DNA of 64,000 nt from positions 682,001 to 746,000 of the forward strand of contig NZ_CP024091.1 in the NCBI RefSeq assembly GCF_002736205.1, written 5' to 3'. The DNA is from Pedobacter ginsengisoli (GTDB taxonomy: Bacteria > Bacteroidota > Bacteroidia > Sphingobacteriales > Sphingobacteriaceae). A model generated the notes under the pieces. That model was not told where the DNA came from. It did no database searches and was given only the letters and a program-made list of their open reading frames with translations. The position numbers and the translations under genes are program-made. Positions 41,387 through 43,463 of this stretch are shown piece by piece. Positions within the stretch are counted from its first letter, which is position 1. Each line of letters begins with the position of its first letter.

Positions 41387-41599
41387 CTAGTGTTTAACTG
41401 AGTCAGTAGCAGTAGTAGTAGTAGTTACAGTTGTATCTTTTACAGCTGAATCAGTTACGTTAGTGTCAACTTGAGTAACAACAGTAGAAGAATCAGTTAC
41501 AGTAGTATCTGTAGATTCACCTTTTTTCTCAGAGTTACAAGCTGCTACTGATAAAGAGATTGCTAAAGCTAAAAAGCCAAATTTAAATGCGTTTTTCAT
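41387..41599 (-). CDS. Small Thr/Val/Asp-rich lipoprotein
   Basis: 70 residues. A signal peptide (MKNAFKFGFLALAISLS) ends in a lipobox VAAC. The mature 50 residues are almost only Thr, Asp, Val, Ser and Ala (TDTTVTDSSTVVTQVDTNVTDSAV), a low-complexity, extended surface peptide. No domain is recognised. It is monocistronic with a terminator and is divergent from the sigma factor gene. A GGGTTACC box on its own strand at 41657-41664 lies 58 nt upstream, so it is a possible target of that sigma factor. Confidence 0.8.
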   Translation of the reverse strand: MKNAFKFGFLALAISLSVAACNSEKKGESTDTTVTDSSTVVTQVDTNVTDSAVKDTTVTTTTTATDSVKH

Positions 41600-41656
41600 T
41601 CTAATTCTATTTTAAATAATTAATTAATTTTACACTTAATACAGCAAAGTTTAAAA

Positions 41657-41782
41657 GGTAACCCACCTAATTGAAAAAAAATAAAAAATATTTTAATCGT
41701 GGTTACTGGGTTACTCTTTATAATATTGCCGTATTAATGAAGAAATAAAAAAAGTATTTTTTTTTGTTATCATTGGGTTACC
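41657..41782. promoter_or_regulatory. Repeated GGGTTACC/GGTTAC boxes in the sigma-factor control region
   Basis: GGTAACCC at 41657-41664 (GGGTTACC on the minus strand), GGTTACT at 41701-41707, GGGTTACT at 41708-41715 and GGGTTACC at 41775-41782 lie between the small lipoprotein gene and the ECF sigma gene. The stretch has no TAnnTTTG box. The boxes could be -35-like elements of the ECF sigma factor or operator sites; orientation suits both divergent genes. Confidence 0.4.
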
Positions 41783-41806
41783 ATTCACGTTTAAATGTAT
41801 TAATTG

Positions 41807-42373
41807 GTGAGTAATAAGTTAAGCAGTTCAGTTCCAACAGATAGAGAGGTAGTTTTAGGGGTCTTAAATAACTCAGAAGAAGCGCTAAATAAATTGTATA
41901 CGGGGTATTTTCCGATGGTTTTACAGTTTATATTAAATAATAACGGTGATGAGGATGATGCAAAAGATGTGTATCAGGAAGGCATAATTGTTTTATATAA
42001 TAAAATTAGAAGCGGAGATTTTGAGTTAAGCAGTAAACTAAAAACATATATATACTCAGTTTGCAGACGAATTTGGTTAAAGAAGCTGGCACAGCAAAGC
42101 AAGAAAACCAATAACGTTTCTGACTTTGAGGATGTGATAGCGATAGAAGAGGATGTTGAACAGCATGAAGAGAAGGATAAGCAATTTGATAAAATGCAAG
42201 AAGCACTCCTCCATTTAGGTGAACCCTGCAAAACCATTATTCAGGACTTTTATATTAACAACCTTTCCATGCAGGAGATTTGTGAAAAGTTTGGGTATAC
42301 AAATACCGATAACGCAAAAACACAAAAATATAAGTGCTTGCAAAGGTTAAAGAAATTATTTTTTCAATCGTGA
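41807..42373 (+). CDS. ECF-type RNA polymerase sigma factor
   Basis: About 188 residues. Region 2 covers about 30-95 (LNKLYTGYFPMVLQFIL, DAKDVYQEGIIVLYNKIRSG, LKTYIYSVCRRIWLKKL) and region 4 about 135-187 (LHLGEPCKTIIQDFYINNLSMQEICEKFGYTN as helix-turn-helix). An acidic linker of about 40 residues joins them. The GTG at 41807 or TTG at 41804 starts the gene; an upstream ATG is followed by a stop. It is one base apart from the next gene, a membrane protein with an anti-sigma-like N-terminus, so the two form a sigma/regulator pair. Repeated GGGTTACC boxes upstream may reflect autoregulation. Confidence 0.88.
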   Translation: MSNKLSSSVPTDREVVLGVLNNSEEALNKLYTGYFPMVLQFILNNNGDEDDAKDVYQEGIIVLYNKIRSGDFELSSKLKTYIYSVCRRIWLKKLAQQSKKTNNVSDFEDVIAIEEDVEQHEEKDKQFDKMQEALLHLGEPCKTIIQDFYINNLSMQEICEKFGYTNTDNAKTQKYKCLQRLKKLFFQS

Positions 42374-42374
42374 T

Positions 42375-43463
42375 ATGAGGAACGAAATAGAGTTAGAGGG
42401 CATAATTGAAGATTACCTTAATGGTAAGCTTACTGAAGCTGAAGCAGCCGCTTTTGAGCAACTACGTTTAAATGATCCAACTGTTGATCATAAAGTTGTT
42501 GCGCACAAGGTTTTTCTGGATTCATTAAAAGATTATGCATCAAATCTTGATTTGAAAAACAAGATGGATTATGCGCATGATCAGATCGATGTTGATGCAT
42601 TGAGCAGAAAGCTTGGGCCGCATCCTTCGTTTATTGTTAATATGTGGCGTAAAAATAAATCAGCAATTGCTGTGGCAGCCTCTTTTATATTATTAACAAT
42701 TGTTACCATCTATTCTATACAGCAAACTACAGAGCAAACAGGTAGCTATAAACAAATGAGTGCTGAGCTAAGCAAGCTTAAAAGTTCTACAAATAACCTG
42801 ATCCGAGATGTAAAATCCAGTCAGAACTCAAAAGTTCCTGTTAAACCTGTGAAATTTGGAGGTACCGGTTTTGCAATTTCTTCTAACGGATACATTTTAA
42901 CAAGTTATCATGTAATCGAAAAATCTGATACAGTTTATGTTCAGAACAATAAAGGTGACCTTTATAAAGTTGACATTACCTACAAAGACCCTACTAACGA
43001 TATTGCTATTCTAAAAATCAGAGATAAAAAATTCTCATTAGGTTCTTTACCTTATTCATTGAAAAAGGGAAAAGTTGGGCTTGGGGAGTCTGTTTACACA
43101 CTTGGTTATCCTAAAGATGAGGTAGTGTTAGGAATAGGTTATTTAAGTTCACAAAGCGGTTTTAACGGCGATACTTTAGCTTATCAGTTATCTCTTGATG
43201 TTAACCCTGGTAATAGTGGTGGACCATTGTTAGACAATAGTGGAAATGTAATAGGCATAATCAATGCTAAAGAAAGCTATACCGATGGAGCAACTTTTGC
43301 TGTAAAAGCAAAGTTCCTTCAGGAAGCATTAAGCTCTATCCCTCAGGACTCTATTGTAGGAAGAATATCTTCTGTTAGAAAGAGTAAATTATCGAAATTA
43401 GAACCATCAAAACAAGTGTCTAAAATTCAAGACTACGTGTTCATGATTAAAGGTTATAACTAG
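42375..43463 (+). CDS. Membrane-anchored HtrA/trypsin-like protease with anti-sigma-like N-terminus
   Basis: 362 residues. Residues 1-80 are a cytoplasmic helical segment (IEDYLNGKLTEAEAAAFEQL, FLDSLKDYAS) that resembles the start of anti-sigma factors but has no zinc His/Cys. A membrane helix spans about 96-115 (SAIAVAASFILLTIVTIYSI). A linker leads to a chymotrypsin-fold protease with His179 (LTSYHVIE), Asp209 (PTNDIAIL) and Ser281 (NPGNSGGPLLD). There is no PDZ domain. The gene begins 1 nt after the sigma factor stop, so they are surely co-expressed. The inferred role is holding the sigma factor until a periplasmic proteolytic event releases it; substrate and trigger are unknown. Confidence 0.85.
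   Translation: MRNEIELEGIIEDYLNGKLTEAEAAAFEQLRLNDPTVDHKVVAHKVFLDSLKDYASNLDLKNKMDYAHDQIDVDALSRKLGPHPSFIVNMWRKNKSAIAVAASFILLTIVTIYSIQQTTEQTGSYKQMSAELSKLKSSTNNLIRDVKSSQNSKVPVKPVKFGGTGFAISSNGYILTSYHVIEKSDTVYVQNNKGDLYKVDITYKDPTNDIAILKIRDKKFSLGSLPYSLKKGKVGLGESVYTLGYPKDEVVLGIGYLSSQSGFNGDTLAYQLSLDVNPGNSGGPLLDNSGNVIGIINAKESYTDGATFAVKAKFLQEALSSIPQDSIVGRISSVRKSKLSKLEPSKQVSKIQDYVFMIKGYN

Follow-up and report, generated by a model that had tools for sequence, protein, structure and literature searches.

The sigmaE-RseA-DegS-RseP system of Escherichia coli and the AlgU-MucA-AlgW system of Pseudomonas link an ECF sigma factor to a periplasmic trypsin-like protease. In textbook sigmaE systems, the sensor protease and the anti-sigma factor are separate proteins. 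The protease bears a PDZ domain, and the anti-sigma factors RseA and MucA are single-pass membrane proteins with a cytoplasmic N-terminus. A combination of trypsin-like proteolysis with membrane anchoring is found in HtrAw of Brevibacillus, a membrane HtrA that cuts its own N-terminal anchor in response to substrate (PMC5359297). Furthermore, some gene neighbourhoods of the NucA-trypsin, EACC and TRADD-N conflict systems bring ECF-type sigma genes together with peptidases resembling trypsin or caspases; the parts of the source that concern these systems present other domain sets and no fusion of a membrane anti-sigma factor with a protease (PMC8195603). No description of such a fusion was found in the open-access literature searched; the ECF re-classification (NAR 2021), which lies outside that scope, may already assign the pair described here to a numbered ECF group and annotate a putative anti-sigma factor for it.

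We analysed a 64,000-nt stretch of the 5.37 Mb genome of Pedobacter ginsengisoli (Sphingobacteriaceae; GCF_002736205.1, NZ_CP024091.1 positions 682,001-746,000), hereafter the window, which encodes an ECF sigma factor next to a membrane protease. The best reading of this locus is sigmaE-type signalling with a fused anti-sigma factor and site-1 protease and a lipoprotein regulon. The pair probably represents an autoregulated ECF unit that combines anti-sigma domain, membrane anchor and protease in one chain and drives the expression of small lipoproteins. In contrast to the sigmaE and AlgU systems, with their separate anti-sigma factor and PDZ-bearing protease, a single chain without PDZ domain would serve both functions, and the predicted regulon is tiny. 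If true, the fused form would be the simplest receptor of this kind, in which one active-site mutation tests the whole pathway.

Organization and conservation of the sigma factor-protease pair

The ECF sigma factor gene (41807..42373, + strand) encodes 188 aa from a GTG start codon, 3 nt 5' of which an in-frame TTG is located, and is separated by 1 nt from the open reading frame (ORF) of the 362-aa membrane protease (42375-43463, + strand), as described in an earlier note on this DNA. The sigma protein passes the ECF cut-off of TIGR02937 (90.8 bits, cut-off 42.9) and that of Sigma70_r2 (35.4 bits, cut-off 24); its region 4 scores below the Pfam cut-off, and the modelled region 4 matches those of SigW and SigL. 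These matches agree with the definition of ECF sigma factors, which have ECF-type regions 2 and 4 and no region 3.

Matches to the protease, nearly all of them full-length, were identified in 298 of 301 Sphingobacteriaceae genomes, and in 70 of 70 family loci examined the sigma gene is located directly upstream on the same strand, with a spacing of -43 to +39 nt. At the class level (346 genomes), the full-length protein is present in ~45 genomes outside the family, distributed over several other families, and all 37 of these loci with upstream DNA contain the sigma gene. The same applies to 78 of 78 loci from named organisms, most of which belong to Pedobacter, Mucilaginibacter and Chitinophaga; the sets of 70, 37 and 78 loci overlap. 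The spacing between the two genes is usually within ~50 nt in relatives. Among named organisms, Pedobacter panaciterrae has the protease most similar to that of the window (93% identical). The synteny search across Sphingobacteriaceae that the earlier note had proposed hence revealed a near-universal pair, and the direct linkage asserted there extends to every full-length relative with readable upstream DNA, among which no full-length protease without an adjacent sigma gene, the observation named beforehand as speaking against the proposal, was encountered. The adjacency of the two genes is therefore no coincidence.

In addition, 24 secreted relatives were identified that have secretion-type N-termini and only the protease part and C-terminal tail in common with the window protein. 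A related sigma gene was found beside 0 of 24 in the flanks examined, and the catalytic triad is partly lost in three of the 24. As all 108 full-length relatives aligned from the sigma-linked group have the triad (H179, D209, S281) unchanged, catalysis seems to be needed in that group. The secreted relatives lack both the N-terminus and the sigma gene. Anti-sigma-like N-terminus, sigma gene and intact triad therefore travel together. Gene neighbourhoods and alignments support the view that sigma factor and protease form one conserved unit. Many secreted Bacteroidota proteins (L110-L133) combine varied N-terminal regions with the same trypsin-like domain and tail, and the secreted relatives L128, L130 and L134 have part of the catalytic triad replaced.

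Anti-sigma-like N-terminal domain

The protease starts with a putatively cytoplasmic helical domain (residues 1-95; 42375..42659, + strand) that was classified as anti-sigma-like from family matches, structural models and co-divergence with the sigma factor. Four helices are modelled (2-15, 21-33, 35-70 and 73-80), an architecture that may correspond to that of class I anti-sigma domains (ASDIs), to which weak sequence matches were also obtained. Among 37 diverse members, zf-HC2 is the commonest Pfam match of the N-terminus (12 members, compared to 3 for the runner-up) and "anti-sigma factor" the commonest NCBIfam match (10 members), although each of these matches is weak and none reaches its curated cut-off. 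The domain differs from ASDIs in its sub-threshold similarity, its long third helix and its fusion to an active-looking protease. Residues 1-95 contain no Cys and no Hx3Cx2C motif, which excludes a zinc-binding anti-sigma (ZAS) domain and agrees with the earlier remark that zinc ligands are missing; the zinc motif is also missing in ~44% of known ASDIs (PMC7406223). Weak matches to DUF6985, SLATT_6 and FtsL were rejected, as too few members share them. A PDB profile search with the N-terminus returned no anti-sigma structure among the 60 matches listed; doubtful matches to PPAR helices in this search were taken as chance similarity.

The divergence of residues 3-75 tracks that of the sigma factor (pairwise r 0.85), with a partial r of 0.56 once the protease domain is removed, part of which may still reflect shared ancestry as is inherent to mirror-tree comparisons. 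The corresponding values for the membrane helix, tail and linker are 0.29, 0.16 and -0.18, respectively. Furthermore, the structure prediction of sigma factor and N-terminus suggested in the earlier note was conducted as a fusion, for which the Chitinophaga locus L209 was read through the stop codon with a 17-residue linker. The model has a pTM of 0.80 and pLDDT values of ~92-97 in the N-terminal helices, and contacts at the interface are inferred from these confidence values only. The best Foldseek matches of the fusion model are AlgU chains from the AlgU-MucA complex (E ~0.01), and ranks 5-6 are taken by sigmaE of the sigmaE-RseA complex (E ~0.01); after structural re-alignment, which covers the sigma part only, sigma domains from anti-sigma complexes lead. 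The resemblance to an anti-sigma start noted earlier is therefore strengthened by family matches in which anti-sigma domains outnumber others, by co-divergence with the sigma factor and by a confident fusion fold. Residues 1-95 likely bind and restrain the sigma factor, as far as alignments and models indicate.

In one clade (L077, L078 and L085; three loci, one family), the first ~40 protease residues are missing while the sigma pair is kept, which might place most of the binding segment in the later helices. Either helices 3-4 would then contribute most to binding, or its mode would differ in these organisms. What looked like a split or extended sigma gene in the same clade was explained by an ORF start called too far upstream or by a gap without coding sequence.

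The truncated clade would also fit a protease that is a mere effector co-produced from the sigma operon, with an N-terminus that anchors or assembles the protein and does not bind the sigma factor. Such a role would agree with the missing significant match of the N-terminus to a solved anti-sigma factor, and with the rarity of class I anti-sigma neighbours in this phylum, where they accompany 6% of Bacteroidota ECFs compared to 32% overall (PMC7406223). However, anti-sigma signatures head both the Pfam and the NCBIfam scan, the N-terminus co-diverges specifically with the sigma factor and folds confidently with it, and the two genes show strict one-to-one linkage, which makes a mere effector improbable. 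We favour sigma binding by the N-terminus, and the pair represents a widespread anti-sigma candidate in the Bacteroidota with a predicted promoter. Anti-sigma-like N-termini that activate are known in cell-surface signalling systems, and the membrane protein might likewise activate the sigma factor, e.g., as a co-factor whose cut-free N-terminal fragment is needed. Gene order and promoter data are equally compatible with activation, but the N-terminal signature resembles inhibitors, and we regard an activator as very improbable.

Membrane topology, protease domain and proposed mechanism

The anti-sigma-like domain is followed by a single predicted membrane helix (residues 97-115; 42663..42719, + strand). 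The hydrophobic segment at ~97-115 is the only one in the protease by hydropathy and has K/R residues on its N side, which places the N-terminus inside by charge and matches the one membrane helix claimed previously; in the predicted structure, a helix of residues 86-118 spans this segment. The subsequent periplasmic helical linker (residues 117-159; 42723..42851, + strand) is modelled with low confidence and is the least conserved part of the protein. It leads into a trypsin/HtrA-type protease domain (residues 160-320; 42852..43334, + strand) with the triad codons H179 (42909-42911), D209 (42999-43001) and S281 (43215-43217), all on the + strand.

Residues 163-295 match Trypsin_2 (E 1.6e-24). 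The nearest PDB entries to this domain are proteases of the DegP/HtrA type, and the protease domains of DegS and AlgW are among its nearest counterparts in both sequence and fold. The model of the 362-aa protein (mean pLDDT 81.9) resembles HtrA1 and DegS without their PDZ domain. As no PDZ domain was matched in the 362-aa protein and every NCBIfam HtrA/DegS cut-off was missed (TIGR02037, 88.6 vs 416.2 bits; DegS, 67.7 vs 423 bits), the protein is not a member of the HtrA/DegS (S1C) family. The earlier description as a trypsin/HtrA-type protease with intact triad consequently stands for the trypsin-like domain and the triad, but not for HtrA/DegS membership. The PDZ position is occupied by a conserved C-terminal tail (residues 330-362; 43362..43460, + strand), which is modelled as a helix plus a strand and is common to the secreted relatives.

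In the proposed mechanism, residues 1-95 would hold the sigma factor at the membrane until a periplasmic event switches on the trypsin-like domain, which might then cut the juxtamembrane linker, either in its own chain (in cis) or in that of a neighbour (in trans). Subsequently, the sigma factor could be freed by intramembrane cleavage through the only RseP-type protease that the genome encodes. One M50/RseP homologue was identified in the genome (E 1.2e-56), and a site-2 protease is thus available. Both the single-pass layout with a cytoplasmic N-terminus and the presence of an RseP-type protease are shared with the RseA and MucA systems. HtrAw, which is also a membrane-anchored trypsin-like protease, provides a precedent for the self-cutting step, although it needs its PDZ domain for activity and its self-cutting is known to release the protease rather than a sigma factor. 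Self-cleavage of the protease chain is proposed with reservation, at a probability that we place somewhat short of even.

The main rival is a protease that acts on other clients. In this case, the N-terminus would still be an anti-sigma factor, and the protease would spare its own chain and sense or degrade periplasmic clients, perhaps the lipoproteins described below, while a change in conformation or a different site-1 protease frees the sigma factor. Comparison of the linker across relatives revealed no strongly conserved site where self-cleavage would fall, which is in line with such clients, as are the occurrence of protease domain and tail in secreted relatives unable to act on the sigma factor and the fact that the main predicted targets are exported lipoproteins. 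On the other hand, an additional partner would be required, and no group other than the sigma-linked one keeps the triad invariant, although invariance would also suit a client-degrading enzyme. We consider this explanation rather unlikely.

Predicted promoters and putative regulon

New in this analysis is a predicted promoter before both the sigma gene and a divergent small lipoprotein gene; promoter sites and lipoprotein gene are situated just outside 41807-43463 and were absent from the earlier note. The predicted promoter of the sigma-protease operon (41775..41803, + strand) is an exact GGGTTAC-N15-GTATTAA that ends 3 nt before the GTG start. With the -10-like box this close to the start codon, the sigma mRNA may be leaderless. 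An additional exact promoter-like site, GGGTTAC-N16-GTATTAA (41708..41737, + strand), also faces the sigma gene, and the predicted promoter of the lipoprotein gene (41636..41664, - strand) is an exact GGGTTAC-N15-GTATTAA conserved in relatives. The lipoprotein gene itself (41387..41599, - strand) is a putative sigma target and encodes 70 aa with a signal peptide, the lipobox AAC and a T/D/S-rich mature part. The protein resembles the PG1828 family in signal peptide, lipobox and small size, but the match is weak (41.5 bits, cut-off 50).

The three exact GGGTTAC-N14-17-GTATTAA sites of the window compare with 0 expected by shuffling. The whole genome contains four exact sites, three of them in the sigma/lipoprotein intergenic region, whereas a reversed-pattern control yielded 0. 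With two mismatches the pattern was rejected, as 37 sites stood against 74 for the reversed control, and only exact sites were thus used genome-wide. The fourth site, GGGTTAC-N16-GTATTAA, precedes by 37 nt a paralogue of the divergent gene, which likewise encodes a small T/D/S-rich lipoprotein (62 aa; L219:1501-1756; G000:C1:3220166 onwards).

In the upstream regions of 185 loci, GGGTTAC is present in 182 and GTATTAA in 149. A near, exact site at the sigma gene was identified in 76 of 77 named loci, its commonest distance to the GTG being 3 nt. A divergent small lipoprotein gene with a site (≤2 mismatches allowed) is present in 74 of 77; the encoded lipoproteins average 69 aa, and T, D, S, A and V abound in their mature part. 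The loci read contain 440 sites, 204 before sigma and 189 before small lipoprotein genes, a tally that is not an unbiased sample because the loci were chosen around the pair. Site and pair also co-occur across genomes, both in the family (89/89 with the pair vs 1/12 without, p 8e-14) and in the rest of the class (24/45 vs 22/285, p 3e-12), with related genomes treated as independent in both comparisons. It is well supported by these sequence patterns that the sigma factor reads GGGTTAC-N15/16-GTATTAA and regulates itself.

Once free, the sigma factor would direct transcription of its own operon, the divergent lipoprotein gene and one more lipoprotein gene in the P. ginsengisoli genome, and the predicted regulon appears to comprise little more than the operon and a few tiny lipoproteins. 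The lipoproteins may be the output and, speculatively, might also report the state of the envelope back to the protease. That all steps hold together, i.e., that a one-protein receptor cuts itself or its neighbour and frees a sigma factor whose almost lipoprotein-only regulon feeds back on the protease, seems doubtful as a complete circuit. The regulon is small enough for gene-by-gene testing, which renders the circuit directly testable and offers a regulatory handle on a tiny, low-complexity lipoprotein family without assigned function.

The site was also observed away from the pair, upstream of DUF4294-like genes of several relatives (L278, L281, L285, L286, L287, L290 and L305); for L285 and L290, a Pfam match confirmed the DUF4294 domain. 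No promoter-like site was seen upstream of the DUF4294 gene of the P. ginsengisoli genome itself. In the Mucilaginibacter-type loci L292, L293 and L294, two to three tandem small lipoprotein genes are located by the pair, each with its own site.
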